The position numbers and the translations under genes were made by a program. Shown piece by piece: positions 8,816 to 53,200 of a DNA stretch of 58,148 bases. The notes beneath the pieces are model-generated. The model saw only the letters and a list, made by a program, of their open reading frames with translations, did not search any database and was not told where the DNA came from. The stretch's first letter is position 1. Each line of letters begins with the position of its first letter. The stretch comes from a virus. The stretch lies in the IMG/VR virus record IMGVR_UViG_3300017968_000007, positions 1 through 58,148 of that record. One strand, 5' to 3'.

Positions 8816-9988
8816 ATGACTTGTAAAGGAAACTGTGTTTGTAAGAAGGAAAAAACTGCAATTATCTTTGGGGTAACTGGTCAGGATGGATCACATCTAG
8901 CTGATCTTTTACTTGAAAAGAACTACAAAGTAGTTGGTGTTAGCCGTAGATCTTCTACTGACAACACTCAGAGAATCTCTCATATTAATAATCCAAATTT
9001 TAAGATAGTCGATGGCGATATTACAGACTATTCTAGCGTCATTAGTGTTCTTGCTAAAAATGCTACGTATGGCACTGAAATATATAATCTCGCCGCACAA
9101 TCACACGTTGCCGTATCATTCAAGCAGCCCGGATTAACTTGGGATATAACAGGCAAGGGATGCCTTAATCTTTTACAGGCTATCATAGATTTAAATCTTG
9201 ATAAGTATAAGGTTAAATTTTATCAGGCAAGTTCTAGTGAAATGTTTGGCAAGAATTATGACTATATAGATTATAGTTACGAAAATGAAAATGGAAATAC
9301 TGTATTGACACATTTAAAATGTCAAAACGAAGACACAAAATTCCTACCACAAAGTCCATACGCTATTGCTAAGTGTGCAGCTCATGAAGCAGTCAGGTTA
9401 TATCGTGAAGCATGTGGATTACATGCCAGTGCCGGTATCTTATTTAATCATGAAGGAGAGCGACGAGGAGAGACATTCGTCACTAGAAAAATTACAAAAT
9501 GGATTGGTGAATTTCTTAGATGGTCTAATAGGGCTGTAAGTCCAATATCGCCTCAAAGTAAAGCTAGTTATGATAATGACAATATCATTATAAATGGATA
9601 TAAATTTCCAAAGCTACGTCTAGGCAACTTAGAAGCATCGAGAGATTGGGGGTATGCAGGAGATTATGTGGAAGCCATGTGGATGATGCTTCAGCAGGAA
9701 GCTGCTGATGATTATGTCATTTGCACCGGCGAGACTCATACTATTCGCGAGTTCTTAGACGTAGCATTTAAACTGGTTGGTATTAACAATTGGGAACATT
9801 TTGTAGTTCAAGACCCAGCATTTTATCGACCGGCAGAAGTTGATTACCTAAGAGGTGATTCTAGTAAGGCTAGAACGCAATTAGGATGGACGCCTAAAAC
9901 TTCCTTCGAGGGATTAGTTAATATTATGATATCACATGATGTTTCATATTTTCCTTCTGAGGTACAAATGTATGTAGATACTAAATGA
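8816..9988 (+). CDS. gmd: GDP-mannose 4,6-dehydratase
   Basis: A 390-residue short-chain dehydrogenase/reductase of the extended family. The NAD(P)-binding GVTGQDGSH is at residues 19-27. SSSEMFG (139-145) supplies the acid/base residues, and YAIAK (182-186) is the catalytic Tyr-Lys pair. Further markers are LYNLAAQSHV-type (here IYNLAAQSHV) and FNHEGERRGETFVTRKI. It converts GDP-mannose to GDP-4-keto-6-deoxymannose, the precursor of GDP-fucose, perosamine and related sugars. An unusual Cys-rich leader (MTCKGNCVCKKEK) precedes the Rossmann fold. It is cotranscribed with terminase genes, so expression is probably late. Confidence 0.93.
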   Translation: MTCKGNCVCKKEKTAIIFGVTGQDGSHLADLLLEKNYKVVGVSRRSSTDNTQRISHINNPNFKIVDGDITDYSSVISVLAKNATYGTEIYNLAAQSHVAVSFKQPGLTWDITGKGCLNLLQAIIDLNLDKYKVKFYQASSSEMFGKNYDYIDYSYENENGNTVLTHLKCQNEDTKFLPQSPYAIAKCAAHEAVRLYREACGLHASAGILFNHEGERRGETFVTRKITKWIGEFLRWSNRAVSPISPQSKASYDNDNIIINGYKFPKLRLGNLEASRDWGYAGDYVEAMWMMLQQEAADDYVICTGETHTIREFLDVAFKLVGINNWEHFVVQDPAFYRPAEVDYLRGDSSKARTQLGWTPKTSFEGLVNIMISHDVSYFPSEVQMYVDTK

Positions 9989-22144: not shown

Positions 22145-25100
22145 ATGTTTACTAACGACGCTGGATATCTAATTGCACATCCAAGTATTTCCGCAGCAAG
22201 TTCTTCTGATAATTCTGGACGTACTTATATCCAAGATATTTTGTTGGATAGTAATGGACATGTTACTGGAATTGCGACAGCCGCAGAAACAGTAACAGAT
22301 ACAACATATTCGGCTGGAACTGGATTACTACTATCTGGTACTGAGTTTAATATTAGCGGTGTAGATACAAGTTTGTTACAAGGTACTGTTGCCAATGACC
22401 AACTGGCAAACTCGTCAGTAACAATAACTGCTGGCACAGGATTGTCAAATGGTGGAAGTGTTACTCTTGGCGGCAGTGTTAGTATAGATGTTGATTATGG
22501 TGCCGTAGATCATGATTCTTTGAACAATTTTGTGGCAAACGAACATATTGATCATACATCTGTTACATTTACTGCTGGCTCTGGATTATCTGGCGGTGGA
22601 GATATTTCTTCTAACAGGACTTTCAACGCCCTGACAGCAACTACTTCGAGTTCCGGCATAACAACACTAACTAATACTATTGATTCTACAGAAACTAAAG
22701 CACTAACACCAAAGGCAGTTAACGACGCTGGATACCTTACAGCACACCCAGCCATTTCTGCCGCTTCTTCTTCAGACAATAGTGGTAGAACCTATATCCA
22801 AGACATTTTACTTGACAGCAATGGTCATATTACCGGCATTTCTACTGCTACAGAAACAGTTGTTGATACAGATACAACATATACCGCAGGAACTGGACTA
22901 ACTCTTGTTGGTACAGAATTTAACATTGACGATACTGTGGTGCAATCAGGCGATAATATTAGTTTATTAGTTAATGATTCTGGATATATTAATACAGAGC
23001 TTAACGATTTAACGGCAAATGTAACATGGGCAGATGTACCAGACGCTAACATTACTGAATCATCAGTTGTTCAACATTCTGGTGCAATAAGAATTACTGA
23101 ATCACAGATTGTAGACTTGCAAAGCTATTTAACAGCACATCCATCTATCTCTGCCGCAAGCAGTAGCGATAATTCTGGACGTACTTACATCCAAGACATC
23201 TTGCTTGACAGTAATGGTCACGTTACTGGAATAACAACGGCTACAGAAACTGTAACAGATACTGATACCACATATACGGCTGGAACTGGCTTGACATTAA
23301 ATGGTACAACATTTGACGCCAACGTTAATGCAACAGTGCAAACAACTGCTGCTGAAAGTGTTACATCTACTGCCAATAGAACTTATGCTATTCAAGTAGA
23401 TGGTAGTGATAACCTAGTTGTCAATGTTCCTTGGGAAAGTGGTACTGGAGGTGGTGGTGGTGGTGGTGGTGGTGGAGATATTACTGCTGTATATGCTGGA
23501 AGTGGTTTATCTGGTGGTGGAACTACTGGAGATGTCACACTTAATGCTTTAACGGCAACTACTTCCAGTTCTGGTATAACTACATTAACTAATACTATAA
23601 ATGGTGATGAAGATAAAGCTCTAACGCCTAAAGCAGTTAATGATGCTGGATATCTTACAGCACATCCAAGCATTTCCGCAGCTTCAAGCAGCGACAACTC
23701 TGGAAGAACTTATATTCAGGATATTCTTTTAGATTCTAATGGTCACGTAACAGGAATCGCAACCGCGACAGAAACTGTCGTTGATACAGATACTACCTAC
23801 ACCGCTGGTACGGGATTAACTCTTGTTGGTACAGAATTCAATATTGACAATACGGTAATACAATCTGGCGATAATGTCTCTTTATTGAATAATGATGCTG
23901 GATATTTAATTGCACATCCATCTATCTCTGCTGCAAGCAGTAGCGATAATTCTGGAAGAACCTATATTCAAGATATCTTGCTTGATAGTAATGGTCACGT
24001 TACTGGAATTGCAACAGCGACGGAAACTGTAACAGATACTGATACTACCTATACTGCCGGTAGTGGTTTACAGTTAAATGGTACAGTTTTTGAGGCTTTA
24101 ACCGCCACTACATCTGGCAGTGGAATCACAATTCTCACTAATACAATTAATAGTGATCAAGATAAAGCCTTAACGCCAAAGGCAGTTAACGACGCTGGAT
24201 ACCTTACAGCACACCCAACCATTTCTGCCGCCTCTTCTTCAGACAATAGTGGTAGAACCTATATTCAAGACATTTTGCTTGATAGTAATGGTCACGTTAC
24301 TGGAATTGCGACAGCGACAGAGACTGTAACTGATACTACCTATACCGCTGGAACCGGCATAACTTTAAATGGCACAACTTTTGATATTAATCTTGTAGAT
24401 GGCACAACTCAAACAACTGCGGCAGAAAGTGTTACGACTACAGCAAATAGAACCTATTCCATACAAAGAAATGCTAGTGATCAATTGGTAGTTAATGTTC
24501 CGTGGGAAAGCGGTGCTGGAGGGGGCGGCATTTCTAATGTTGTGGAAGATACAACTCCGCAGCTTGGTGGAACACTTGATGCAAATGGCAATATTATTGA
24601 TATGGGAACCTATACCATAACCGATGCAAAGGTTGGTCAGTGGGATACTGCTTATGGCTGGGGCGATCATGCTAGTGCTGGATACTTAACTTCGGAGACA
24701 TCCCATGCTGACGTTGTTGTAGATGGAGACTTTGGCTCTCAGGGTATTATGTTAAGAGGTGCTAGTGCTGGAACATATAGCATTCTTACTGACAATTCTA
24801 CAAACTGGAACACTGCTTATGGATGGGGCGATCATTCTACCGCTGGGTATCTTTCTAATATAGTTGAAGACACAACCCCTCAGCTTGGAGGTGACTTAGA
24901 TCTAAATGGAAATCAGATTTTAGACGCTCAATGTGAAGCAAGTCTATCTACAAATGTAGCTTTAACCGCTAAAGGTGCAGCTTCACAATCTGCGAGCTTT
25001 TTTGAAGCTACTGATAGTTCTGATACGGTTGTAGCTAAAGTCTATCCAACTACAGATACGAGTAATTTTCTACTACAAAAGGGTGCTGGCGATAACGTAA

Positions 25101-25693
25101 AAATAACAGCTAAAACAGTCACTCCCGGTACAAACGGCTGGGCTGGCGTAGAAATTGATAGTGATGGTCAAGCCTATGTGGAACTTGATCGCGGCGGAAC
25201 AACCGATTGGGCGGATTTAGCTTTAAGAACAGCAAGTGTGACAAAATGGAGGGTTGGGCTTCAAGCGAACCAGTCAAGATTTGCTATTTACGATTATGCG
25301 GCTGGCAATCATGTTCTTTATGCCCCGGATAATGGAACGGATGTAACAACTGATAGAACTTGGCATTTTAATAAGGCGGCTAAAGGTGCTTTAAATACCG
25401 AATCAGATGGAGCAACAGTTACATTTGATCTTGATGAAGCTGATACTCATACAGTTACACTTGGAGGTAATAGGACTTTAGCACTATCTAATGCTGATGT
25501 TGGTCAAAGATTTGTAATTAGGTTAGTTCAAGATGGGACTGGCACTCGTACAGTAACTTGGTTCAGTACGATTAAGTGGCCGGGAGGCTTAGTACCAACA
25601 TTAACTACAACTGGCGGTAAAACAGATGTATTTGGATTTATTTGTACTTCAGCCGGAAATTATGACGGTTTTGTAATAGGATACAATCTATAA
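22145..25693 (+). CDS. Tail fibre, C-terminal repeat-rich part
   Basis: A 1182-residue fibre segment. It has six copies of a block with NSGRTYIQDILLDSNGH, alternating with TYTAGTGL, EFNID and KALTPKAVNDAGYL units. The glycine run GTGGGGGGGGGGD comes next to a repeat, two WNTAYGWGDH-type units near the C-terminus, and a final beta domain (LGGNRTLALSNADVGQRFVI). No ribosome site precedes the ATG at 22145, and the open frame begins upstream at 22091, overlapping the previous gene. It is therefore likely the continuation of that fibre rather than a separate gene. Confidence 0.8.
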   Translation: MFTNDAGYLIAHPSISAASSSDNSGRTYIQDILLDSNGHVTGIATAAETVTDTTYSAGTGLLLSGTEFNISGVDTSLLQGTVANDQLANSSVTITAGTGLSNGGSVTLGGSVSIDVDYGAVDHDSLNNFVANEHIDHTSVTFTAGSGLSGGGDISSNRTFNALTATTSSSGITTLTNTIDSTETKALTPKAVNDAGYLTAHPAISAASSSDNSGRTYIQDILLDSNGHITGISTATETVVDTDTTYTAGTGLTLVGTEFNIDDTVVQSGDNISLLVNDSGYINTELNDLTANVTWADVPDANITESSVVQHSGAIRITESQIVDLQSYLTAHPSISAASSSDNSGRTYIQDILLDSNGHVTGITTATETVTDTDTTYTAGTGLTLNGTTFDANVNATVQTTAAESVTSTANRTYAIQVDGSDNLVVNVPWESGTGGGGGGGGGGDITAVYAGSGLSGGGTTGDVTLNALTATTSSSGITTLTNTINGDEDKALTPKAVNDAGYLTAHPSISAASSSDNSGRTYIQDILLDSNGHVTGIATATETVVDTDTTYTAGTGLTLVGTEFNIDNTVIQSGDNVSLLNNDAGYLIAHPSISAASSSDNSGRTYIQDILLDSNGHVTGIATATETVTDTDTTYTAGSGLQLNGTVFEALTATTSGSGITILTNTINSDQDKALTPKAVNDAGYLTAHPTISAASSSDNSGRTYIQDILLDSNGHVTGIATATETVTDTTYTAGTGITLNGTTFDINLVDGTTQTTAAESVTTTANRTYSIQRNASDQLVVNVPWESGAGGGGISNVVEDTTPQLGGTLDANGNIIDMGTYTITDAKVGQWDTAYGWGDHASAGYLTSETSHADVVVDGDFGSQGIMLRGASAGTYSILTDNSTNWNTAYGWGDHSTAGYLSNIVEDTTPQLGGDLDLNGNQILDAQCEASLSTNVALTAKGAASQSASFFEATDSSDTVVAKVYPTTDTSNFLLQKGAGDNVKITAKTVTPGTNGWAGVEIDSDGQAYVELDRGGTTDWADLALRTASVTKWRVGLQANQSRFAIYDYAAGNHVLYAPDNGTDVTTDRTWHFNKAAKGALNTESDGATVTFDLDEADTHTVTLGGNRTLALSNADVGQRFVIRLVQDGTGTRTVTWFSTIKWPGGLVPTLTTTGGKTDVFGFICTSAGNYDGFVIGYNL
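22151..24340 (+). repeat. In-frame fibre repeats (six copies)
   Basis: Six related blocks, each containing a stretch coding for TYIQDILLDSNGH, lie near 22172, 22739, 23137, 23657, 23911 and 24211. Codon choice differs between copies although the protein is nearly identical, so they are old duplications under protein-level selection or gene conversion. Confidence 0.85.
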
Positions 25694-26019: not shown

Positions 26020-26511
26020 ATGCCGGAACAAACATATACACATAGACCTCCATTGTCGTATATGACGGATGCTGAAGTAAGAGCATTAGGTTTTCATAAC
26101 TATCAAATATTTGATGTATTGCGAGGTAGTGGCGATCCAGATGCTATGCCGGAATATAATTTGGATATTAGCAGTTCTACTGGATTTGGTCCAACTTATA
26201 CAGTTACTTTAGTCTATGATAATGCCACATCCGATGGTCTTACAAAAATTCAAATTGGCGATAAATTAATTATTGGTGATGATATTGACAACTCTACTGG
26301 AGGTGCTAAGCAATGGTATAGATATGATATTACAGCAATATCTTCATCTTCTGCAAGTTCTGCCACCGTAACGGTAAAATATATCATTGATACGGCATCT
26401 GGCGGCGACGTTGATCCAGATACACTCCATTATGAGTATGACGCTTATGGTGCCTCAGTAGATGTAAATATTATTGCAAGGGAATTAAATTCACAATTTA
26501 TGCTAGGATAA
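26020..26511 (+). CDS. 163-residue unknown protein
   Basis: It starts MPEQTYTHRPPLSYMTDAEV; the rest is a beta-rich, Ser/Asp-rich domain (TYTVTLVYDNATSDGLTK, ASSATVTVKYIID). Probably virion-associated by position after the fibre genes. No family is recognised. Confidence 0.68.
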   Translation: MPEQTYTHRPPLSYMTDAEVRALGFHNYQIFDVLRGSGDPDAMPEYNLDISSSTGFGPTYTVTLVYDNATSDGLTKIQIGDKLIIGDDIDNSTGGAKQWYRYDITAISSSSASSATVTVKYIIDTASGGDVDPDTLHYEYDAYGASVDVNIIARELNSQFMLG

Positions 26512-26514
26512 TAT

Positions 26515-27537
26515 ATGGAAGAATGTTGTTGTGACGGACCCGGATTTTGCCAGTTTTTCAATAAAGAAATGACGGCAGACCCACCAAGTTGGCAATGGTG
26601 TCAATCTGCTACATCTGAAGAAAGAGAGGCATATAAACAAAGATCTGATCTTGGAATACAAACAAAAAGAAAAAGATCTCCATCTGGAAAGATAATAACG
26701 CTTGATGCGTTGATAAATACAACAAAAACCAAGCTAATTCCACAATTGAAGAAATATAATATATCCGGAATTGTTGGTGTGCCAAGGTCAGGATTAATTA
26801 CAGCATCAATTATAGCGGTTGAGTTAAATCTTCCGCTTTATTCTTTTAATGGAAAAGAGTTGGTTTTACTCTCTTCATTTTCTGAATATGGTGGATGTCG
26901 TATGGAGCATTTCAATCAATCTGGGGATTGCCTGATATTTATTGACGATACAAGTAGTTCTGGTTTTGCCGCTAAAAATATAAAGGAGTTATTTCCGGAA
27001 TCAATATTTGCCGTTACTTACTCAACATCTGTTGGCACTAATCATGTAGATCATTACGGGGAAATATTAGAGAATCCACATATATTAGAATGGAACTTTT
27101 TTAACAGCCTGCATGTCCAACACGCATTATTTGATATCGACGGTATATTTTGCAAGAACGTTCCAATTGAAATATTAAACGATGAAGAAAAGCATATTGC
27201 ATGGCTTGAAACAGTTGAGCCATATCTTGAGAGAATACCCAAATTATTTAAAGCTAAGGCATTAGTAACTGGAAGACTAGAAAGATATCGAGATGTGACG
27301 GAGGCTTGGCTTAAAAGACATGGATTTAATTATAATAAGCTAATTATGTTTCCAACAGAGAGAGAAGAAGAACGTAATTTAAGGCATCATTTTGTTGTTG
27401 GTCAATATAAAGGAGAAATTGCCAAAAAAATGTTTGCTAAATTTTTTGTTGAGAGTGAAATGCCAGAGGCAAAAATAATTAAAGAAACATTTCCAAATAC
27501 TTGTGTTATTTGTCCAAATGATGGGGTTTACTTTTAA
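26515..27537 (+). CDS. Phosphoribosyltransferase-HAD fusion
   Basis: A 340-residue two-domain protein with a Cys-rich leader (CCCDGPGFCQFF, then WQWC). Residues 85-180 form a PRTase type I domain: GIVGVPRSGLITASIIA and the PRPP loop FIDDTSSSG (142-150). Residues 203-340 form a HAD-like domain starting FDIDGIF (D207/D209), with VTGR near 252 and a long C-terminal helix region. It may build or hydrolyse a phosphoribosyl-linked sugar precursor, and it starts the carbohydrate cassette. The two enzyme folds are clear; the substrate is not. Confidence 0.82.
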   Translation: MEECCCDGPGFCQFFNKEMTADPPSWQWCQSATSEEREAYKQRSDLGIQTKRKRSPSGKIITLDALINTTKTKLIPQLKKYNISGIVGVPRSGLITASIIAVELNLPLYSFNGKELVLLSSFSEYGGCRMEHFNQSGDCLIFIDDTSSSGFAAKNIKELFPESIFAVTYSTSVGTNHVDHYGEILENPHILEWNFFNSLHVQHALFDIDGIFCKNVPIEILNDEEKHIAWLETVEPYLERIPKLFKAKALVTGRLERYRDVTEAWLKRHGFNYNKLIMFPTEREEERNLRHHFVVGQYKGEIAKKMFAKFFVESEMPEAKIIKETFPNTCVICPNDGVYF

Positions 27538-28064
27538 TGATCTACCTTCCGGGAAGGGCGGTTTTTATACATGTGCCAAGAGCCGCTGGAAATTCAATAA
27601 CTAACGCTATAGCTTCCGCTTGTGCCGGAAATAATTTTGATATTTTCATAGGAACAGGGGCACATTCTATACCGCATTGGTGGCATTTTGCAAGACATAC
27701 AAGAGCCTGTGTTTTAAAAAAATACATAACAGAGTGGGATGATATATTTAAGTTTGCTATTTATAGACCAGAAGAAGAAAGACTTAATAGCATTAAAGCA
27801 TTAGTAGATAAAGATATTGCTTTAGGCGTTCATGAGTCTCCACTTTGTGCTGATGGATGGAAAAAAGTATTATCATCTGAAGATAAAGAATGGTATTGGG
27901 ATATTCAAAGAAAACAAGATTTAGCTTGGTTTACTAAAGGTTATGATGGAGAAGATCTTGGTGTTGAGATATTTGACTACTACAAACTAAACGAACAATG
28001 GTGGGAAATTTGTGTAAAATGTGATATTCCACAATGTAGTTTGCCACATCTTAATAAGGCTTAA
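27537..28064 (+). CDS. Sulfotransferase-like protein
   Basis: A 175-residue protein. The 5'-phosphosulfate loop is FIHVPRAAGNSI (residues 10-21; normally PKTAGTS) and the 3'-phosphate motif is FAIYRPEEERLNS (normally VRNPxxRxxS). This is the sulfotransferase family 2 pattern, so it would transfer sulfate from PAPS to a sugar. It starts in a TAATG overlap with the PRTase-HAD gene. It is shorter than most family members, so the acceptor side may be minimal. Confidence 0.78.
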   Translation: MIYLPGRAVFIHVPRAAGNSITNAIASACAGNNFDIFIGTGAHSIPHWWHFARHTRACVLKKYITEWDDIFKFAIYRPEEERLNSIKALVDKDIALGVHESPLCADGWKKVLSSEDKEWYWDIQRKQDLAWFTKGYDGEDLGVEIFDYYKLNEQWWEICVKCDIPQCSLPHLNKA

Positions 28065-28066
28065 TA

Positions 28067-28924
28067 ATGATAGAAGCGTATGTCCTAAATACCTATGATG
28101 AATTTAAAGATTGGCATAGAACTTCAATTACTAGCCTCAATAGGTATTTTACTAAACATGGAGTAACGCTACGTGTTATTGACAAAAATAATTACTTTGT
28201 TAGAAAGATGCTTGATACTAACATTGATCATCATCCGTTCATTAGAAAGCTAACGCGAATTTATAGTTTTTTAGAATCTCAGGCTGATATTGGTATTTTT
28301 ATTGATTTAGACACTGTAGTACTAAAACTAGAAGAAGACATTAACGGATTAATACCGCAAGACAAAAATTTTATGCACTGGAGATTTGTAGATTTTGGCG
28401 ATAATCCCGACAGGCCGTGGTTGAAAACAAAAACAGATATCACAAGATTATTTTTTTCCGATAATTATAATAAAGTGCTTAATACTGATACTGGCTTTGC
28501 AATATACACAAGAGAGTTTTGTCAAAATTTAGTTGATTACTTAATAAGTAGAGAATTAGATATTGTGTCAGAAATAGGGTTGCTTCATTGTATGAGCATT
28601 AACAACCAGTTACGAATTAAGGATGAAAAACAAATAATTAATGATGAACATTTAATATCCTTTTTTCTACAAGAGAATGATAATTATAAAAGCTACACAA
28701 TAGAGCCTCCGTGTAATTTTGCTGGGCAATATCCAAATAACAAAATATGTTCATCAACTTATAATATAGGCGATCCGCTATATCCACAAGAAATAGAATT
28801 TAAGGATATGATAACTTGGTCTATGCAGAAGCTATGCCTACATGATTGTATATTCCATCATTTATTGGGATGGAGAATGTCTCACAAGTTAGTGCCATTT
28901 TATGTGGAAGCATTTAAAAAATGA
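28067..28924 (+). CDS. Glycosyltransferase (GT-A type)
   Basis: A 285-residue protein with the metal-binding DxD FIDLDTVVL (D80, D82) and the acceptor-side NTDTGFAIYTRE motif, typical of retaining GT-A enzymes with a sugar-nucleotide donor. C-terminal IFHHLLGWRM may complete the site. It begins 2 bases after the sulfotransferase and ends in an ATGA overlap with the cytidylyltransferase. Donor and acceptor cannot be read. Confidence 0.8.
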   Translation: MIEAYVLNTYDEFKDWHRTSITSLNRYFTKHGVTLRVIDKNNYFVRKMLDTNIDHHPFIRKLTRIYSFLESQADIGIFIDLDTVVLKLEEDINGLIPQDKNFMHWRFVDFGDNPDRPWLKTKTDITRLFFSDNYNKVLNTDTGFAIYTREFCQNLVDYLISRELDIVSEIGLLHCMSINNQLRIKDEKQIINDEHLISFFLQENDNYKSYTIEPPCNFAGQYPNNKICSSTYNIGDPLYPQEIEFKDMITWSMQKLCLHDCIFHHLLGWRMSHKLVPFYVEAFKK

Positions 28925-29325
28925 AGCTATACACTGGAGGAACATTTGATCTTTTCCATTACGGGCATATGAAATTTTTAAGAGCCTGTCAAAAGATTTC
29001 CAGTCAAGTTTTTGTTTCTCTAAATACTGACGAGTTCGTATTTTCTTATAAAAATCAAGCCCCAATTTTATCTTATCATGAAAGAAAACAAAGTATTGAG
29101 TGTTTTGACTCAAATATAAAAGTTGTTGAAAATATTGGTGGTCACGATAGCAAACCAGCAATATTAACAGTTCAGCCAGACATTATAGCAATTGGCGATG
29201 ACTGGTGCAAGAAAGACTATTACGAGCAAATGCAGTTTACTCAAGAGTGGTTGGACATTAATAATATACTATTAATTTATATTCCGTATACCAGAGATAT
29301 CTCAACTTCAAGTTTAAAGGCATGA
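28921..29325 (+). CDS. Cytidylyltransferase (TagD/glycerol-3-P type)
   Basis: A 134-residue nucleotidyltransferase with HYGH at residues 13-16 (the HxGH signature) after TGGTFDLF, and the C-terminal RDISTSSLK matching the family's RTxGISTTxI/xK motif. It would couple CTP to an alcohol phosphate such as glycerol-3-phosphate or a sugar alcohol phosphate, forming a CDP-activated donor. It is the last gene of the cassette. Substrate specificity is inference. Confidence 0.9.
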   Translation: MKLYTGGTFDLFHYGHMKFLRACQKISSQVFVSLNTDEFVFSYKNQAPILSYHERKQSIECFDSNIKVVENIGGHDSKPAILTVQPDIIAIGDDWCKKDYYEQMQFTQEWLDINNILLIYIPYTRDISTSSLKA

Positions 29326-29656: not shown

Positions 29657-29962
29657 ATGGCTAGTCAAATACATGTTGGAGATATTGGCACTAAACTCAT
29701 TATGACCGTTAAGGACGATGGGGTAGTTGTAGACATATCTACTGCTAGCGATTTAGATGTATTTATAAAAAAACCAGATGGCATTTCATATGAAAAATCC
29801 GGCCTTTTGTATACTGATGGCACAGACGGTAAAATGTATTATACATCCGTCAGTGGCGATTTCAATGCTGCTGGAAATTATAAACTTCAGGGTAGAGTAT
29901 TTATGCCTAGCGGGACTTATTATACCAGTATAGAAGATTTCAAAGTTTACTGTAACCTTTAA
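29657..29962 (+). CDS. Baseplate BppU-like N-domain protein
   Basis: A 101-residue immunoglobulin-like domain: IHVGDIGTKLIMTVKDDG, VDISTASDLDVFIKKPDG, KMYYTSVSGDF, GNYKLQGRVFMPSGTYYT. This resembles the N-terminal domain of upper baseplate protein BppU, which anchors receptor-binding proteins. Here it stands alone before neck genes. GGGAG precedes the ATG. Confidence 0.72.
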   Translation: MASQIHVGDIGTKLIMTVKDDGVVVDISTASDLDVFIKKPDGISYEKSGLLYTDGTDGKMYYTSVSGDFNAAGNYKLQGRVFMPSGTYYTSIEDFKVYCNL

Positions 29963-36434: not shown

Positions 36435-39400
36435 ATGGCTTACGATTTCAATATGCAGATGAATATGCAAGCACCATCTGGTGCTAACATAAGTCGCGTT
36501 AAGAAGCAGATAGAGGCTGGTCTTGGCGGCATAAATATTGGTGGTTTAGACACTAAAGGGTTTGCCAAAGCCAATAGTGAAATCGAAAAAACTAGGAACA
36601 ATTTAAAAAAAGGCGAGAAAGCCAGTGAATCTTTTTTTCAAGCTCTCACTGGCAGAGCCGCTAATTATGCCACTTTTACGGCAATCAGCACAGCAGTTCT
36701 CAAATTAACTGGTGCTGTGGCACAAGCTACTAGAGAAGCCGTTAAATATGAGACCGAGTTAATTAAAATATCTCAAGTTACCGGAGATACTATCTCTCAA
36801 ACTAAAGAATATGGTAAAGAACTACTCAATATCTCAAAGACCTATAATGTTAATATTACTAAGATTGCACAGTTAACTAGAACTTTAACTCAGACCGGCC
36901 TTTCTTTTAGAGAAGCCGCTAAGGGTGCTGAATTACTTGCTAGAACTAGCTTGTTAGCATCTTTTGATAACTTAACATCTACTACTGAAGGTTTGATTGC
37001 TGTTATGCAGACGTTTAACCTTACGGTATCTTCTAGTTCAAAAGTACTTGAAGAAATTAACATTGTTTCAAAAAGGTTTGCTGTTGAATCTGGAGACATT
37101 GTTGAAGCAATTAGAAGAACTGGTGGTGCATTTAGTGCGGCGGGTGGTAATGTTGAAGAACTGATTGCATTGTTCACATCTGTTAGATCTACTTCTCGTG
37201 AAAGTGCTGAAACTATTGCTACTGGTTTCCGTACTATTTTTGGTCGTTTACAGAGACCTAAAACTATTGAATACTTTAAGGAATTAGGTATTCAGTTACA
37301 AACTGCCGAAGGTCAATTCATTGGGCCATATGAGGCCATCAAACGAATTAGCGAGGGGTTAGACGAACTTGGCATTCGTGCAGGCTCTGTTCAGTTTGCA
37401 CAGGTCGTAGAACAAATTGGTGGTATTCGACAGCTATCTAAAGTGGTGCCATTGCTCGAACAATTTAATAAATCACAAAGAGCATTAGATCTACAAAACC
37501 AAGCTAGTGCTGAAAGCACCAAAGACATAGAAAAGGCACAACAGGGTCTTGGCTTCCAATTAGGAGTGTTGCGTCAAGAATTTGGTGCATTAATTGCCGA
37601 ATTTGTTGACTCTAGCTCGTTCAAGTTTCTTGCTGAAACCTTTATATCAATTGCTAGAACTGTGATTCGCTTAACGGCTGCGTTTAAGCCATTACTTCCT
37701 ATTTTAGCCACTCTGACGGCATTTAAGATTGGCAAAGGTTTAGGAACTCTTATTTCAGGAGGGTTTAGTTTAAAGGGATTGAAAGAGGCTGCTGTAGCTC
37801 CTAAAGGATTTGCTAGAGGGGGTATTGTTCCGGGAAGTGGCAATGGTGATACGGTCCCAGCTATGCTGACGCCGGGAGAGTTTGTAGTTAGAAAAAGTGC
37901 TGTGCAGGCATTTGGTGCTGCTAATTTGGGCAAGATAAATCGTTATGCGGATGGTGGAGAGATTATCTATGATAGACCACAGAGGGACGGTATTGCAGAA
38001 GACACATTAAACGCTGGTATGGCTAAAGCAGTAAATGATTTAGCAAAGTCTATGAATAAGGATTCAAAAAAAGTTAGAGGAACTATTAAAAATATACCTC
38101 AATATGAATCAGTTGTTGGGGTATTATTTGAAGCGGCTTTATCAAGAGCTTCTGGTGGTAATTTTACCGACAATGATGATCCATTAAAACCATTTGATTT
38201 TCCTACCGGCCTTAAAAATAGCTATTTTAATTTAGTTGGTAGAGGTGCTATGCCAACTGATGCCAAAAAAACTAGACCCGAGCGAGCAAACATATTAAGT
38301 AAAATTGCAAGATTTTTATCAGGGGATGGACGAAAGCGGACGCCCGGAAAGAAAAATTTTGGTGTTGCTATTATGGAAAAAGGATCGGATGAAAGATTTA
38401 CATGGGACTTGGAAGACCTTGGTCAATATATACAAGAAAAAAATGTTGGAGGTTCAATTTCTGGTGCAGGAACCGATACTGTTCCCGCACTCTTAACTCC
38501 CGGTGAATTTGTTGTCAATAAAAAGTCTGCTCAGGCTTATGGTTATAACAATCTCAAAAACATTAATAAGTATGCTAAAGGAGGCATTGTACAAAGATTT
38601 GCGGGAGGTGGCGAAGTTGATAGAGGAAGAATAAGTGAACTTCTTAAACTGACAAATCAGGGAGACAAGAGGACTCAAATAGATACATCCGACGCTGATG
38701 CTATTAAGCAGCAAATTAAATTATTGCAAGAACTTGTTAAATTAAATAAAGTTGCCTATATTAGATCACATCCAGATAGAGCGGGTGGAGATGATAAAAC
38801 CTTCAAAGATGATATAAGAGTAAGAGACATAGCAAATAAGCGTCTTGAAAAAATGAACGCGGCTTTAGAAAGAATTTCTGCTGGTATTGGCGGTGGTGCT
38901 GGAGGCGGCGGTGGTGCTGGAGGCGGCGGTGGTGCTGGAGGCGGCGGGGTCGGTGGAGGACTTATTGTTGCTAAGAAAGCAGAGGCTGAGGCTACTGAAT
39001 TAGCCACCACGAAAGTAGAGGGTTTAGTTGATGCGGCAAGCAAATCTGGTTATGCCTTGATTAAAGTTGAGCAATCTGGAAAGAAAGCGGCAGACGCTCA
39101 GGACAAAGCCGCCGAGGCGGCTAAAAAGCTAAGCCTAAATAGTGCTCAAGTTATCTTTGGATTTGCCGCACTTACTTCAGGTTTGAAAAACTTTGCTGGC
39201 CTTAATCTCAATCAAGCAGCATTGGATACTGCTCAAGTTAAAGCGGGTAAATTTGGAGGAACGGCTGATATATTAGGCAGGGTTGACAAAAATAACGTGA
39301 AAGCATTTAGTAGAACCTTGTTTGATGTTGGGAAAAAACTGCCAAACAAAGTTGGTAAGCCTTTGCAGGGCTTAGCAGTTGGAATAAGTAAAAATTCTAC

Positions 39401-42400
39401 TGCGATTGTCAAAGGTGCGGCAGGACTGGCTAAAGGTCTTAATGTAGCTATGTGGGCTGAATTAGTAGGAGGCTTTGCAGATTCATTATTTAGTCAAGAC
39501 TATGGAAAGCAAAAAGAACAAGCAATTGAACTAGGAGATGCTCAAGCTGCTGGCGTTGCAGCACTTAACGAATATAATCAGTCCATGTTGAGAGGCATTC
39601 CAGTTATTGGAGGATTTCTTTCCGCAGTGCAGTCGCTTTTACCAGTTTGGGAAACTAGCATTGGCGGAGTTGTTAAAGCAACTGCTGAAATGCAAGCGTC
39701 TGTGGTTGCCCTAGATAAAAAGATGGTGTCATCTAGTAAAAGCATCAATGATGCTTTCATTCGTGGAGATAGGGGAGAATTTAAAGCGGCTTATAGTGAA
39801 GCTAAAGGAGCTATTTCTAACACTCGATCTAAAATAGATACAACAAAAACAAAATTAGCTGAAGCTAGTGCTGGAAAACAAGCAGGGGCAGATGCTCTTG
39901 CTGGAGCTGCTGGTGGTGCTATAGCTGGAGCAGCAATAGGAAGCTTTGTTCCCATTATTGGAACAGGTATTGGAGCCGTGGCTGGTGGTCTAATTGGCGG
40001 TGCAATGGCCTTAAAATCATCTCTGGGCAAAAGCCATAAGGCGATTATAGAAGGTTATGAAGAAGCCGGAAAAGCCATTCAAGCGGCGGGGCAAGCACAA
40101 AGAGATATACAGCTACAGGTGGCTAATGAAATGACTTCAGCGGCTGTTAAGGTGATTGCTGCTGGTGGAACATACGAAGACGCTTTTGCACAATTAAAAG
40201 ATCAGTTTGGAGATGAAGCATTTGCTGATATGTTTGGCGATGTAGATGTTTCAAGTGCAGCAGATGTAGAAGCAATATATCAAAAACAAAAAGTCGCAGC
40301 AGAGGAGGCGGCGGCAGCAATAGAAATGCAAAATCAAGCCATATCTGATCAGGCCGCTGATATAGAAACTAGATGGTTTCCTTGGACTAAGAATGCTTCT
40401 AAACAGGCTAAGGCTAGATTGGAAATGGAGAAGAAAGAACTGGAAGAAAAGAAGAAATCCGCAGAACAAAGTAAACAGTTAATAGCACAACTTCAGCAAC
40501 AAATAGCTCAGCAGGCAGCTCTAAATAAAGAGAGGCAGATCGAGGCCGAAAGAATACGTACTATTATTGAACTTAATAGATCATGGCAGGAAAGTCAAGA
40601 TAGTATTAATAACACTATTTCAGAATTTTCAAATCTTTCTGATAAGTTTAGTAAAATAGGTACTGGACAATTAACTAATGAAGACGCATTGGCCGGAACT
40701 GGTATTTCTACTCGTACAATGGGTATGAGTGGTGAACAGATACTTCGCGACAGTACCGCTTTTGAAGAAATGCTTCAGTCTATTAACAGAACTGCCGCAG
40801 CAAATAATTTAGGCACTGGTAGGCAAGATTTTCTAAGAAGAACACAAAATGAATTTGCAGCTATTGATAAGTTAGAAAACATATTGACAACAAATCAATC
40901 TGTTACCGAAAAAGTCCTTGCTGCACAAAAAGCAGCAAGAGTTAGCACTACAGCAGATGATAAGGGCAAAGTTGCCGAGGGGCTGGCAGACACTGAAATC
41001 ACAGCCCTAAAAGACGAATTGATCAAACAGTTGGGCGGCAATGTAAGTACAGAATTGGAAGCTGGACTGCTTGAATACGCTAGAAAACTTGCCAGTAGTT
41101 TAGATGCCACCGTTGCTGCTGATGAGGTAAAGAAACAGCTTGGAGAAACCGCTGCTAGATTTTTTGAGGAACAAAAGGAAAACATTGAAAAGCTACAGGA
41201 AAAACGACAGGAGCTTCAGGACAAAGAGCTTGAAGTAGCTGCCAAGCGTGTTGCAGATGCAAAGCAGCTATATGATATTCAAAAAGAATCTAGCATGAAG
41301 ATAGCGTCTCTTATTAAAGAAAGTCAAGACTTTTTTGATGTAGATCAAACAACAAGAGGTAGAAAAGCATCTGCTGCTAGAAATATTAAATTTGCTGAAG
41401 AACAAGCAGGTAGAGTTGCACAGGCTAGGCGATCATTTGGCTTTCGTGCGGATGTCCGTCCGGGGCAGCAAGCTGCTGGGACTATCGCAGCAATGTTTGG
41501 TTTTGGAGCCTCGGCTGAGAACGAGATAGCAGCAGATGTTGCAGTAATTGTTGCTGACGCAAAGAAACTTAAACAAGTTGGTCCAGAATATTTAAAGATA
41601 ATTAACGATCAGATTGATGCAGAAAAGACTAAGCTCGATGCTTTACGTGAACAGGCTATTGCTCAACGTGATGCAACACAGGCTCTACGCGATGCACAGG
41701 GCGATCTAGTTAATCAGTTTGCATTTGGCACGGATGAACAGCGTGGGGATCTATTAAGAAGTGCAAACGCTGCACAAATGGCGGCTTCACAAGGAAGTCT
41801 TGCTGGTCTTAGTGGAGAAATGCGTGGTCAAGTATCTTCGTTCTTAGATCAATTTTCAGATGTTCGTCTAGCACAATTTGGCGGTAGAACAGGTGCTCAG
41901 GTTAAGGGAGATATTGCCGCCGAGGAAGCTGTACGTGCCGGTCTGATCAGCAGATCTCAAAAAGCAGACTTTGCCGCCAAAGCCGCTAAGAAAGCTGTGC
42001 CGATTGATCAAAAATTAGCGGAAGGTATTAAAAATCAAGAAGAGGTTATTAAAAGACTATTTGAGTCAGAAAGAGCATTAAAAGAGGCACAGTTGAATCA
42101 GGAATTGCAAAATACTAAAGACATGGCTGGGATTGTAAGTCAATTTGCTACCGCTGTAGCTGATCTAGAGAAGAAGTTAGGTCAGGATCTGACTGACGCG
42201 ATTGCTAATGGAATGAATGCTGCTAGACAGAATCAGATTAACGCTACTAAGAAGGCACAAGGTCTAGCCGAAAAAGGAGAAGATCCTGAATTAACGAAAA
42301 AAATAGCAGATAAACGAAGAGAGGTACAATTAGCGAAGGCAGCGGCTGGAAAAGCAGCACAAGATGAACATAACATAACTAAGAAATTAAATTCAATGCC

Positions 42401-42953
42401 TGTCCGGCGTTCCCGTTCCGGTAAGGGAAGTAACACGAGAGCGACTCTAGTTAGACAACAGAAAGAAGCAGCTAGAGTCCGACAGGCAGCATCTGATGCA
42501 ATGCACACAAAACAGGCAGAGTTGGAGGCTTTGGAAGCAAAAGCAGCACAAGCCTCCGCTTTGCCAGTGTCACCGCAAACGACGACGGCGATTGATCAGG
42601 GAGTGAATAATACCACCCCGTCAGTGTCACCGGGGCCAAGTGTCATGCCTGCTATTGCTTCTCCTCCTCAGTCCGTGGCGGGATTAACTCCTTCAGTTAC
42701 CACACCGGCGGGAGGATCTTCCGTTGAACAAATTCCTAAATTTGAAATAACAGGATCACAACAAATTACTATTGCTATGCCAGACGTTCAAGCTGCTTTC
42801 AGCAAAGAAATTACGGGAATGGTTTATTCCGCAGTTGCATCAGTGTTTAAGACGGCTGCTGACAAGATAGACGGTTCTACATCTCCAGAAGGTGTTGCGT
42901 TGGCATTGCAAGATGCGGCAAATAATACTCAAACAGTAGGAGTAAGTTCATAA
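36435..42953 (+). CDS. Tape measure protein
   Basis: A 2172-residue tail length ruler. The N-terminal 430 residues include the phage TMP domain (EYGKELLNISKTYNVNITK, RTSLLASFDNLTSTTEGLIA, GDIVEAIRRTGGAFSAAGG). Two copies of the TMP motif DTVPAxLTPGEFVV lie at residues 472-485 and 681-694, with a unique 185-residue insertion between. A J-domain-like HPDRAGGDD is at 779-787, a Gly-rich linker at about 818-841, and an Ala/Gly membrane-zipper segment at about 1151-1195. The rest is coiled coil. The start is 11 bases after the preceding stop. Confidence 0.95.
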   Translation: MAYDFNMQMNMQAPSGANISRVKKQIEAGLGGINIGGLDTKGFAKANSEIEKTRNNLKKGEKASESFFQALTGRAANYATFTAISTAVLKLTGAVAQATREAVKYETELIKISQVTGDTISQTKEYGKELLNISKTYNVNITKIAQLTRTLTQTGLSFREAAKGAELLARTSLLASFDNLTSTTEGLIAVMQTFNLTVSSSSKVLEEINIVSKRFAVESGDIVEAIRRTGGAFSAAGGNVEELIALFTSVRSTSRESAETIATGFRTIFGRLQRPKTIEYFKELGIQLQTAEGQFIGPYEAIKRISEGLDELGIRAGSVQFAQVVEQIGGIRQLSKVVPLLEQFNKSQRALDLQNQASAESTKDIEKAQQGLGFQLGVLRQEFGALIAEFVDSSSFKFLAETFISIARTVIRLTAAFKPLLPILATLTAFKIGKGLGTLISGGFSLKGLKEAAVAPKGFARGGIVPGSGNGDTVPAMLTPGEFVVRKSAVQAFGAANLGKINRYADGGEIIYDRPQRDGIAEDTLNAGMAKAVNDLAKSMNKDSKKVRGTIKNIPQYESVVGVLFEAALSRASGGNFTDNDDPLKPFDFPTGLKNSYFNLVGRGAMPTDAKKTRPERANILSKIARFLSGDGRKRTPGKKNFGVAIMEKGSDERFTWDLEDLGQYIQEKNVGGSISGAGTDTVPALLTPGEFVVNKKSAQAYGYNNLKNINKYAKGGIVQRFAGGGEVDRGRISELLKLTNQGDKRTQIDTSDADAIKQQIKLLQELVKLNKVAYIRSHPDRAGGDDKTFKDDIRVRDIANKRLEKMNAALERISAGIGGGAGGGGGAGGGGGAGGGGVGGGLIVAKKAEAEATELATTKVEGLVDAASKSGYALIKVEQSGKKAADAQDKAAEAAKKLSLNSAQVIFGFAALTSGLKNFAGLNLNQAALDTAQVKAGKFGGTADILGRVDKNNVKAFSRTLFDVGKKLPNKVGKPLQGLAVGISKNSTAIVKGAAGLAKGLNVAMWAELVGGFADSLFSQDYGKQKEQAIELGDAQAAGVAALNEYNQSMLRGIPVIGGFLSAVQSLLPVWETSIGGVVKATAEMQASVVALDKKMVSSSKSINDAFIRGDRGEFKAAYSEAKGAISNTRSKIDTTKTKLAEASAGKQAGADALAGAAGGAIAGAAIGSFVPIIGTGIGAVAGGLIGGAMALKSSLGKSHKAIIEGYEEAGKAIQAAGQAQRDIQLQVANEMTSAAVKVIAAGGTYEDAFAQLKDQFGDEAFADMFGDVDVSSAADVEAIYQKQKVAAEEAAAAIEMQNQAISDQAADIETRWFPWTKNASKQAKARLEMEKKELEEKKKSAEQSKQLIAQLQQQIAQQAALNKERQIEAERIRTIIELNRSWQESQDSINNTISEFSNLSDKFSKIGTGQLTNEDALAGTGISTRTMGMSGEQILRDSTAFEEMLQSINRTAAANNLGTGRQDFLRRTQNEFAAIDKLENILTTNQSVTEKVLAAQKAARVSTTADDKGKVAEGLADTEITALKDELIKQLGGNVSTELEAGLLEYARKLASSLDATVAADEVKKQLGETAARFFEEQKENIEKLQEKRQELQDKELEVAAKRVADAKQLYDIQKESSMKIASLIKESQDFFDVDQTTRGRKASAARNIKFAEEQAGRVAQARRSFGFRADVRPGQQAAGTIAAMFGFGASAENEIAADVAVIVADAKKLKQVGPEYLKIINDQIDAEKTKLDALREQAIAQRDATQALRDAQGDLVNQFAFGTDEQRGDLLRSANAAQMAASQGSLAGLSGEMRGQVSSFLDQFSDVRLAQFGGRTGAQVKGDIAAEEAVRAGLISRSQKADFAAKAAKKAVPIDQKLAEGIKNQEEVIKRLFESERALKEAQLNQELQNTKDMAGIVSQFATAVADLEKKLGQDLTDAIANGMNAARQNQINATKKAQGLAEKGEDPELTKKIADKRREVQLAKAAAGKAAQDEHNITKKLNSMPVRRSRSGKGSNTRATLVRQQKEAARVRQAASDAMHTKQAELEALEAKAAQASALPVSPQTTTAIDQGVNNTTPSVSPGPSVMPAIASPPQSVAGLTPSVTTPAGGSSVEQIPKFEITGSQQITIAMPDVQAAFSKEITGMVYSAVASVFKTAADKIDGSTSPEGVALALQDAANNTQTVGVSS

Positions 42954-50222: not shown

Positions 50223-53200
50223 ATGGCTTTTATAACTCAGAGCGGGGACACTCCCTGTTATTCATGTGGCAAACAATGTATAAATGTAGAATTTTGTAGT
50301 GAAGGTGCCACATACGACCTAAGTGAATCAAACGGTATATCTCTTTCTAAGAATATAAAAGTTAAGATCATAGCCAACCCCGACTTTTGGGGCTTTGGAA
50401 CTATAGAGGATAATGTTTTAATATCTGGCTGGGCCACATGGGGTACAAGCTACTACGATTTCTTTGACGGTCATGACGAAGATCATTCAGCCACAAAAAC
50501 ATGTGGCAGTGTGACTTATGGGCCATTTATGAATGAACAACGTCCTGATGTATTTTATAGGACCGTTTATGATCCTTACGACTCGTCATTAGCCCCTACA
50601 TATAAAAAACATTATGATCAGGCTGGAGATTTAGATACCAGCACTCCACCAAAAGACAGGGGAGGTGCCGAGACTTACCTAGTAGATAGACCAAAAGGGC
50701 TTATAGAATATGTAACATCTGATGAAAATTCTTGCGACACTACAAGCCCAAACAAGGTTTTTAAGAAAACTCCAGAGAATTTTGGCTGGGGAAATAAGAT
50801 AAACTTCAGCACAAAGATATTTAAAAACCTTAGTGGTGCATGGAGACTATCTAGTATAGAAAACTGTTATGAGACTGAAGATCTATACGCTCCTCCCGGA
50901 TACCTATTAGATTGTAGTGGGGAGCCTAAGCAAAATATTGCTAGAGAAAGTCACCGCTTTGAGAAGTACGAGCATAATCAAAACCGAGCCAAGCTAACTG
51001 GTATTTCAAATTACTATAATTATGAATCCGGTTGTAGACCTGACGGTGCAGTAGCAGGAGAATACGCCGGTGGTTTTACAAATGCTAGTGGAATTTATCG
51101 TTCCGCCCAAGATGATTTTATACAAGCACGTTTCACTTATGGCGATGGTGCAGCCAGCGGTTTAAAAAATGGAATGACTTTAGGATTATATAACACCGTT
51201 AGTGGACAATTTAATGGGTCTTATACATTATTTGATGTTACCCATGAATCTAATTATACTTCAGCAAAATTTGTAGGTACTCAAGGTGAAGAGATCTTCT
51301 CTTTATCTGGATTAGCCACGGAAAGTGGTGATCATTGGATAGCATTTAATACGTATGATACTGACACATGCTGCGGACTGGCTGCATATGGAGTTGATGA
51401 TAGATGGAAATCTACCTGTAATACTGACTTTCATGTAGACTTCAGGAGAGTCTTAAATAATCCGAAAAATATTCGCCAGTCTAATAGAGATAGAGAATGG
51501 AGATACAATTACGGACTGTTTAATACAATTACTTCAAATGTTGATGCCGACAGTCCAAGATTTGATCAAAATTATGTATCAGTGAGTGGTGGGTACGCAA
51601 TTATTCAGAGTGGTGAAGAATTAATCACCTTTTCTGGATCGTATATGAGCGGAATTCCATATTTACAGAGAGAGATGTCGTATTACGGCCCCTTCTTCAA
51701 TGTAGATGCTTGTGATGATGCAAAAAGACTAGAACAAAAACAAACGCGGCTGAAAAATAAAAACGCTACATGTTACAGCAAAAGAGCGACCCTTGAAATA
51801 TTTCCAGACTGTGTAACCCAATTTGATAAGTATAATGAATGTGAAACCGAGACGGAAAAATATAAACAAAATCGACTACCTAGATTAGCTTTTGTTTATC
51901 GTGGATGCGACTTTAATGACAAGTGTTCATTTGACAGCTCTGGTCTTCCGCTGGGAGGATGGGAAAATTCTGAACCGGCAGATATGAATGATCTAAAAAG
52001 GCAGTTGGCCGGTCAAGAAATTCATATGTTTATTAATCTTGCCCGTGCTTGGGCCGGTAGGAAACCGGGATCTCCCTGTGTATGCGATTGTGGTGAAGAC
52101 CCGCCTGATGGACAACGACCTCCAGTACATGTATCTATTCCTTCAGTAATGACCTTCCCGACACTGCCAAACTTCGATATTGATCCGACTGGATATGGAT
52201 GCTTGGACGCAAGGTATCAGCTTCAGCAGTATAATCTATATGAAGGTCCGAATTATACTGATCCTAACACAGAATTTTGTGATCCACTACATACATCTTG
52301 CTGTGCCTGTAATATACGACAGCCATATACTACATATGGTTACATTATGAATTTATGCGGTAAAGAAGACCGTAATAGAAAGGATGTTATTACTAAGGCG
52401 TTTGCTAAGTTAAATCATGAAAAAACCTACACTAATCAAACTCCGTTAATAGACATTGATGAGCCTATGTACTGGAGTGTCACAGCCCCAATTCCAGCAC
52501 CATTCAACCCCTCTAGTGGATTATGGAGTAGTGGAACATCCAGCAGGGACGATGAGGGTGGTGACTTTTTCCAATATGGAGGAAGTGGATATGGATGGTG
52601 GGGATTAGCTGACACAAACAAAGCCGTAATTGCTCCTTACTTTACAACAAAATGTGGCGAATTTAGCTGCTGCGGGACACCAGAATGCAATCATATAGAT
52701 TATGATGCTAGTGGAACTTACACAAATGTTCTTGGCACTCATAATGGATGGCCTACTGATGGAGTTCCGTTCTTTATTGAATGGGAAGTTGATGATAGAT
52801 GTCTTGGATGTGTTAGTGCAAACATGAAGGCCGAGCCGCTCCATATAAAATTTAGTGGATTAGGGACTGAATATATTTGGGACGAGGCTGATAGATACGG
52901 ACATAACTACTGTAAATATGGTGATCCCGGATTTCTAAATCCGAAACTAGAGCCGGGATTATTTACCTGTGCGGATGGATATGGAAATGATTATTGTGCC
53001 AGCGGAGATGGATTACGTAAAGAATATGGACATGCATATACTGGTGAAACCTGTGGATGCCTTAGCTCCGAAGACGGATTTTCTGCAACATTAGAGCCTG
53101 TTGTAATTCCCAGCAGCGAGATTGTAATTGGATGGAGAAGCAGTCGGGACGGTGGTGGAGACTTGGGAGAAGTTGTTAGTTGTGCTTCATATAAAAGTAG

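Follow-up and report, generated by a model that had tools for sequence, protein, structure and literature searches.

A variable gene cassette headed by a phosphoribosyltransferase-HAD fusion in the virion gene region of phages probably infecting Planctomycetota

The 58,148-nt stretch analyzed here (virus record IMGVR_UViG_3300017968_000007, positions 1 to 58,148; hereafter the window) carries among its virion genes a cassette at positions 26515-29325, the four open reading frames (ORFs) of which encode a phosphoribosyltransferase (PRTase)-HAD phosphatase fusion, a sulfotransferase-like protein, a GT-A-like putative glycosyltransferase (GT), and a cytidylyltransferase (CTase). We see about an even chance that this is a virion-linked, modular glycan-decoration cassette, in which the fusion would add ribofuranose in two steps, and that it belongs to a phage lineage probably infecting Planctomycetota. 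The frame of the cassette is conserved, in that the fusion heads a variable set of genes, and the fusion is likely its heart, a point missed by a first-pass annotation of this DNA. All four ORFs lie on the plus strand and nearly touch each other, with a 1-nt overlap, a 2-nt gap, and a 4-nt overlap in this order, and the fusion starts 3 nt past the end of the preceding gene; the coordinates and strand given in the first-pass annotation were reproduced exactly. Genes identical to those of the cassette are present in three further IMG/VR contigs, one of 118 kb; two of these carry the fusion itself, and the third begins inside the cassette. Since non-identical relatives exist as well (c. 40–66% identity for ORFs 1, 2, and 4 and c. 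23–30% for ORF 3), the four ORFs represent real genes and not chance reading frames.

The fusion consists of an N-terminal Cys motif (residues 4-29), a PRTase domain of the xanthine phosphoribosyltransferase (XPRT) type (residues c. 57-200), and a HAD phosphatase domain (residues c. 202-338). Comparison with family libraries revealed matches to NCBIfam xanthine PRTase (5.9e-12, below the cut-off) and PHROG phosphoribosyltransferase (1.2e-7), and of the HAD part to PHROG polynucleotide kinase, while Pfam Pribosyltran was matched by 14 of 24 aligned fusion members, the window protein not being one of them. An AlphaFold2 (AF2) model based on an alignment of these 24 sequences, including that of the window, reached a pLDDT of 86.8 and a pTM of 0.73. 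Structural comparison with VIA-align matched its PRTase domain to xanthine-guanine phosphoribosyltransferase (XGPRT; 4jls, Z 14.3, rmsd 3.6, 126 aligned residues) and its HAD domain to the phosphatase of T4 Pnkp (5uj0, Z 11.8, rmsd 2.7, 123 aligned residues). Among 72 dereplicated homologs, the loop DD..G for phosphoribosyl pyrophosphate (PRPP) was kept at D144/D145 in all 72 and at G150 in 71, and so were the HAD residues D207 and D209 of motif I, which holds the nucleophile Asp (71 each), T252 (70), and E313 (71). Because these catalytic residues are kept, almost every homolog appears to have two active domains. Thus, model, fold matches, and active-site residues confirmed the initial label of a PRTase-HAD fusion. 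Cys 4, 6, 12, and 29 were invariant across the 24 aligned fusions. At the site aligned with K115, which we take to be the purine-binding lysine of XPRT, a profile alignment placed Asn in 30 homologs, His in 17, Arg in 12, Thr in 5, Ser in 4, and Lys in just 2 of the 72, so that a non-purine acceptor is plausible, a mild argument against the use of purines. When 50,697 phage records were searched for a cultured phage carrying the fusion, 18 partial matches resulted, none covering 80%, and in the same records neither the sulfotransferase-like nor the GT-A-like protein had a match.

Profiles of the fusion were prepared with the Cys motif included (35 viral loci) and for the core only (80 kept of 89). 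With these, 98 loci were found to harbor an ORF of at least 280 aa with PRTase-HAD as its best profile, of which 63 were left after dereplication at 95%. The window-type N-terminal motif is carried by 21 of the 63, including the window phage, all with at least 3 kb of downstream sequence. Partners in these 21 loci, of whose classes one or a few members each were checked against the family library, were sulfotransferase-like proteins (19), methyltransferases (10), pyruvyltransferases (7), GTs (7, the GT fused in L034 uncounted), radical S-adenosylmethionine (SAM) enzymes (4), and CTases (3). The sulfotransferase-like partners belong to three families, one being window-like, one matching Sulfotransfer_2 (5.5e-4, just under the cut-off), and one Sulfotransfer_1 (6e-5, just over it). 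All four genes occur together, among the loci examined, solely in the window phage and the 100% identical contigs, and L020 and L022 combine fusion, GT, and CTase without a sulfotransferase by the profiles used. The first-pass annotation had joined the four genes into a single pathway and had named a lack of joint conservation in relatives as refuting it; by this test the set fails, since only the PRTase-HAD is constant, with partners differing between loci. In 37 distant loci with 3 kb of downstream sequence, to which L032 and L041 were counted as falling outside the Cys-motif filter, these profiles detected a sulfotransferase-like gene in 11 and a methyltransferase gene in 12 cases; the distant locus L215 has a clear Sulfotransfer_4 (5.3e-29). 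Beyond mere neighborhood, the PRTase-HAD of L034 continues into a fused GT8-like part, and L043 has a GT8-like protein that begins with the Cys motif (label based on BLAST clustering with L021, the Pfam match of which is itself under the cut-off with 0.0026), while a Zn-ribbon-like Cys-rich segment heads both PRTase-HAD and GT2 in L226. As a side observation, the PRTase-HAD of five loci (L213-L216 and L224) is accompanied by a cytidylyltransferase of the CTP_transf_3 type (scanned in L213 only, 9.7e-6), which adjoins a small protein, sialyltransferase-like by eye and without a Pfam match.

The second ORF is sulfotransferase-like, as initially labeled, with moderate support from a match to PHROG 3347 galactose-3-O-sulfotransferase (1.3e-4) and from two motifs that were invariant in 16 aligned sequences, namely HxPR..GxS (H12, P14, R15, G18, and S20), resembling the 5'-phosphosulfate-binding (5'-PSB) motif, and R77..R82..S85, resembling the 3'-phosphate-binding (3'-PB) motif. 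The former has Arg in place of the usual Lys, and Arg at this position occurs in some sulfotransferases. These motifs suggest the use of 3'-phosphoadenosine 5'-phosphosulfate (PAPS), which we assume to be supplied by the host. A Cys cluster is located at the C-terminal end. None of the 16 members had a sulfotransferase match in Pfam, where one revealed DUF507 at 0.009. The fold of a structure model (pLDDT 80.4) matched weakly, as detailed below.

The third ORF had no match in Pfam, PHROG, or NCBIfam. Its initial assignment as GT-A-like is weakly supported by a DxD motif, of which D80 and D82 are invariant in three aligned sequences together with H259, D260, and H265, and by an hhalign match to the gene that precedes the CTase in L020/L022 (E 4.8e-5, probability 68%). 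The CTase was assigned to Pfam PF01467 (6e-15, 56.1 bits vs. a cut-off of 21), with cytidylyltransferases of the ECT and GCT type as best PDB relatives (GCT 1coz, 6.1e-13). What remains of its earlier description as TagD-like is CTP_transf_like at the superfamily level only; a specificity for glycerol-3-phosphate (teichoic type) was unsupported, since TIGR01518 (TagD) reached 66.4 bits vs. a cut-off of 165.4, and rfaE_dom_II likewise fell short of its cut-off. The CTase has matches in 113 phage records and at least 568 viral loci, and in other phages it often follows a GT, which the first-pass annotation had also missed. In 68 of the best 80 of these loci, an ORF of more than 150 aa ends at most 90 nt from the CTase start, and it overlaps the CTase by 4-13 nt in 50 of the 80 (ORF starts being the first possible ones, overlaps here and in the counts of Cys-rich neighbors below may be overstated). 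The largest upstream family (35 loci) appeared GT2-like by eye, and five upstream ORFs, two of them from the window phage itself, belong to the window GT family; some others appeared not to be GTs by eye (methyltransferase-like in L086, phosphorylase-like in L121), and in L072 a homolog of window ORF 8017-8808 stands at this place. Because a GT so often precedes the CTase elsewhere, we regard the two as a common phage pair joined to the cassette.

A GDP-mannose 4,6-dehydratase-like gene (Gmd) upstream in the window matched TIGR01472 in two stretches (358.8 bits, under the curated cut-off of 415). It had been described as coupled to the terminase genes, which holds for a conserved neighborhood and not for an overlap, since three ORFs of 90-224 aa separate it from the large terminase in the window. 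In 21 records, many of them fragments (20 holding a PRTase-HAD, and L072 chosen for its CTase), searches at E 1e-40 for Gmd and E 1e-20 for the terminase detected each in 13 and both in 12 records, with a distance of 0.8-2.4 kb in all 12. Ahead of the terminase, L072 harbors a row of CTase, a 208-aa ORF (GT-like by eye), and Gmd, a stronger tie of the latter two enzymes, CTase and Gmd, to a common pathway than the window by itself provides.

The location of carbohydrate-modifying enzymes within a virion operon was borne out by the flanking genes (Table 1), and the cassette is probably expressed late. Its initial placement between fiber and neck genes stands for the fiber upstream, detected via PHROG, while the presumed neck gene at 29974-30501, after the BppU_N-like gene, had no informative match in Pfam or PHROG. 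In relatives, the place of the window tail fiber is taken by long fiber-like proteins and that of the small gene directly before the cassette by a gene of 120-170 aa, though BLAST clustering joined neither with its window counterpart; the BppU_N-like gene formed one BLAST cluster with the genes of relatives. Directly past the cassette (29390-29644), an 84-aa protein displays repeats of the type IDIQQDESFS, and some relatives have other repeat proteins there.

Table 1. Cassette genes and further features of the window.
Feature	Position	Strand	Basis or remark
PRTase-HAD fusion, 340 aa	26515..27537	+	NCBIfam XPRT, AF2 model, VIA fold matches
Sulfotransferase-like protein, 175 aa	27537..28064	+	PHROG 3347, 5'-PSB-like/3'-PB-like motifs
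GT-A-like protein, 285 aa, DxD at 80-82	28067..28924	+	hhalign, DxD
CTP_transf_like nucleotidyltransferase, 134 aa; predicted donor-making enzyme	28921..29325	+	Pfam PF01467
Tail fiber, upstream flank, possible acceptor	22145..25693	+	PHROG 9017/7760 tail fiber 2.4e-10
Small protein directly before cassette	26020..26511	+	Position
BppU_N-like gene, downstream flank	29657..29962	+	Pfam PF10651 6.8e-6
GDP-mannose 4,6-dehydratase-like, putative GDP-6-deoxyhexose supply	8816..9988	+	TIGR01472 2.9e-107
Tape measure	36435..42953		PHROG; downstream of cassette
Cys-rich 2007-aa protein, candidate acceptor	50223..56246	+	96 Cys, 4.8%; fourth gene past tape measure
Small Cys-motif protein, 7.9% Cys	56266..56721	-	Cys count

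Distant homologs of the fusion mostly follow a Cys-rich gene, in that the gene directly before the fusion contained at least 3.4% Cys in 31 of 35 dereplicated loci (L189-L233), as compared to 35 of 201 other neighboring ORFs of at least 150 aa; as the threshold was chosen after viewing the data, this comparison is descriptive and not a test. The 31 Cys-rich genes represent 14 BLAST clusters, and the gap to the fusion is at most 6 nt in 29 of the 35 loci. One of the four loci below the threshold (L190) is of the window type, for which no Cys-rich gene precedes the fusion. The general comparison of neighborhoods does not include L151, L210, L221, L236, and L239, where no ORF was detected. In L199, the Cys-rich gene before the fusion is the fourth past the tape measure; the large Cys-rich gene of the window phage has the same place, but the fusion stands elsewhere. 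Because PHROGs gave no match for the Cys-rich proteins tested, that of the window included, we term them tail-end proteins from their position. Motifs resembling that of the small Cys-motif protein of the window were seen by eye at the start of some PRTase-HADs, and of one GT, in relatives. A Planctomycetota chromosome (L242:3790-11289) carries in a row genes for a protein with 9.2% Cys, a PRTase-HAD with Cys motif, and sulfotransferase-like, methyltransferase-like, and GT-like proteins (partly by eye).

The host of the phage is likely a planctomycete, a phylum that had been missed initially. Cellular matches of the fusion comprise eleven records, namely ten from planctomycetes, five of which are contigs of one metagenome-assembled genome (MAG), and one SAR202 MAG, the locus of which shows phage gene order. 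Among 392 Planctomycetota genomes, six revealed fusion matches, including Thalassoglobus neptunius KOR42, where a head gene (PHROG head maturation protease, 8.7e-10) is followed at a distance of 1.4 kb by the fusion and a sulfotransferase-like gene, and the genes past these two appeared phage-like by eye; we regard this locus as prophage-like. The 118-kb contig encodes two DUF1501-type proteins (L064:9960-12493), one confirmed at 7.7e-69, and DUF1501 was above the cut-off in 21 of the 30 Planctomycetota genomes scanned vs. 2 of 14 controls. For the phage copy, matches were obtained in 93 of 149 such genomes, with at most 40% identity among the matches listed. Apart from that, a Planctomycetaceae MAG (L151-L155 and genome G008) showed 11 PRTase-HAD matches, with three ORFs of 606-711 aa carrying two tandem copies, and a Pirellulaceae MAG contig (L156:2-5781) a PRTase-HAD of 450 aa, after which come a 1216-aa protein and a further ORF, both GT-like by eye.

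By analogy with the bacterial enzymes discussed below, we propose that the fusion is a two-step ribosyltransferase, the PRTase step of which would transfer from PRPP and the HAD step of which would remove the 5'-phosphate, leaving ribofuranose on the acceptor, presumably a glycan. GT and nucleotidyltransferase would generate an activated sugar or alditol and use it, Gmd would supply a 6-deoxyhexose, and the sulfotransferase-like protein would sulfate the product; methyl-, pyruvyl-, or radical-SAM enzymes may act in place of the window partners in related phages. The target would be a tail component of the virion, either the fiber or a Cys-rich tail-end protein. We place such a virion target ahead of a host target with modest confidence, because the cassette lies among virion genes in varied phages, next to fiber-like or Cys-rich genes, and also in a prophage-like element. 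More tentatively, and with rather more doubt than belief, we suggest that the fusion represents a new class of PRPP-dependent ribosyltransferases, its XPRT-type domain having switched from bases to a virion protein or the glycan on it, that Cys-rich tail-end proteins of planctomycete phages are its substrates, and that sulfo-, methyl-, pyruvyl-, and glycosyl-tailoring is hypervariable from phage to phage.

Several findings speak against this interpretation as a glycan-decoration cassette acting on the virion. The PRTase domain resembles enzymes of purine salvage, K299 of the HAD domain is kept in just 60 of the 72 homologs, and a nearly invariant stretch P-H-x-L-x-W-N (P188 and W193 in 72 of 72) could bind a base. 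Regarding sulfation, 44 of 50 fold rows for the sulfotransferase-like model were sulfotransferases, with a best Z of 6.4 (below 8), and MiaA-type enzymes came first at 6.8, which is a weak match; Foldseek revealed nothing at E <= 0.001, and the sulfotransferase-like protein of T. neptunius had no Pfam match. A Ser/Thr-rich acceptor just past the cassette was considered and dropped as a general rule, since the one in the window has 17% Ser+Thr and several relatives have no such gene, the value being 30-35% in L023, L024, L032, L035, L036, and L041. Finally, 17 of the 37 distant loci revealed no other cassette enzyme by the profiles used, which were built from close relatives and may miss partners there; this also speaks against a role in remodeling the host surface.

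In that alternative, which we consider doubtful, the enzymes would act on host glycans and remodel a surface polysaccharide during infection, e.g., against superinfection or re-adsorption to debris, and the proximity of the cassette to the fiber would stem from co-variation with the receptor. Host-surface remodeling fits equally well with a second, larger glycan cluster of the same phage (L064:13391 to L065:10223, on the 118-kb contig), which weighs against the virion reading, too. This cluster encodes a nucleotidyltransferase (NTase), a HAD-like protein, a GHMP kinase (near HddA, 7.8e-37, below the cut-off), an epimerase, a DegT aminotransferase (8e-62), thiamine pyrophosphate (TPP) E1 subunits, a cupin, a B12-radical SAM protein, a dTDP-sugar isomerase (7.7e-23), and several GTs (GT2, 2.3e-11), labeled in part from family scans and in part by eye. 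Clusters of NTase, GT, epimerase, and cupin genes in jumbo phages were assigned to outer-polysaccharide diversification in a review (PMC7824862), and a polysaccharide pyruvyltransferase in relatives (one representative scanned) points the same way. Against this stands the location of the cassette inside the virion operon, by fiber-like or Cys-rich genes in many phages.

It is unlikely that the fusion produces a free nucleoside-like metabolite from a base and PRPP with subsequent dephosphorylation, comparable to Ter systems, and that the other genes are unrelated cargo. Though the PRTase domain is XPRT-like and jumbo-phage Ter systems are described in the same review as pairing PRTases with HADs for nucleoside derivatives (PMC7824862), the sulfotransferase-like partner in 19 of the 21 window-type loci, the GT8-like fusion in L034, the N-terminal Cys segments common to fusions and GTs, and the lack of conservation at the purine-binding Lys position do not fit. 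Glycosylation of modified bases in the phage genome appears very improbable, since sulfotransferase, pyruvyltransferase, and tail-gene location do not agree with it and no base-hydroxymethylating enzyme was noticed among the ORFs of the 118-kb contig (first residues viewed by eye, no systematic search), even though DNA-modifying phage GTs are known (cited in PMC12619734).

If the virion-linked or host-surface role holds, these phages would decorate either their own tails or the surfaces of planctomycetes with ribose plus sulfate or other groups, using an enzyme design without description in the open-licence papers searched; likewise, no description of a PRTase-HAD-led cassette was found in this literature. 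As the prophage-like locus of T. neptunius KOR42 carries both a PRTase-HAD and a sulfotransferase-like gene, the idea is testable in a cultured environmental bacterium. Among known systems, ribofuranosyltransferases combine a transferase domain adding Ribf-5-P from PRPP to a glycan with a HAD domain stripping the phosphate (PMC11127046, PMC10299916, and PMC11231755). The bacterial gPRT-PRP enzymes of Klebsiella O antigens and Bcs3 (CriT/CrpP) of Haemophilus influenzae type b (Hib) likewise unite a PRPP-type transferase and a HAD in one polypeptide, and in Bcs3 the ribosyl and phosphatase domains act with a transferase using CDP-ribitol (same sources). In contrast, the window fusion has a transferase domain resembling canonical XPRT, an added Cys motif, and a place in a phage virion operon, and its PRTase precedes the HAD, whereas in Bcs3 the phosphatase precedes CriT (PMC10299916), an order that is perhaps not defining. 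No gPRT/CriT transferase or ribofuranosyltransferase of known structure appeared among 21 PDB sequence matches or the structural matches listed, which is no proof of absence. Because of its XPRT-like domain, a domain order unlike Bcs3, and no detected relation to gPRT/CriT, we did not class the fusion with gPRT-PRP. Streptomyces and Arthrobacter phages have GT-nucleotidyltransferase pairs, the CTase of which is c. 45–50% identical to that of the window among the matches listed and overlaps an annotated GT by 4-8 nt in the three phages inspected; their GTs have no detectable relation to the window GT, and the 16-kb stretches inspected in these three carry neither a PRTase-HAD nor a sulfotransferase by annotation. 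Polysaccharide clusters of cyanophages and jumbo phages similarly combine a HIGH-superfamily NTase with GTs, epimerases, and HADs, but are interpreted as diversifying the outer polysaccharide of the host, and the accessible part of that review does not mention a PRTase-HAD fusion in these clusters (PMC7824862). Glycosylation of phage virions is already known (PMC12363180, citing Freeman 2023). There, the available text mentions neither a PRTase-HAD fusion nor a sulfotransferase, and the hosts are others, but in the mycobacteriophages Che8, Corndog, and Myrna phage-encoded GTs decorate the capsid and tail tube.

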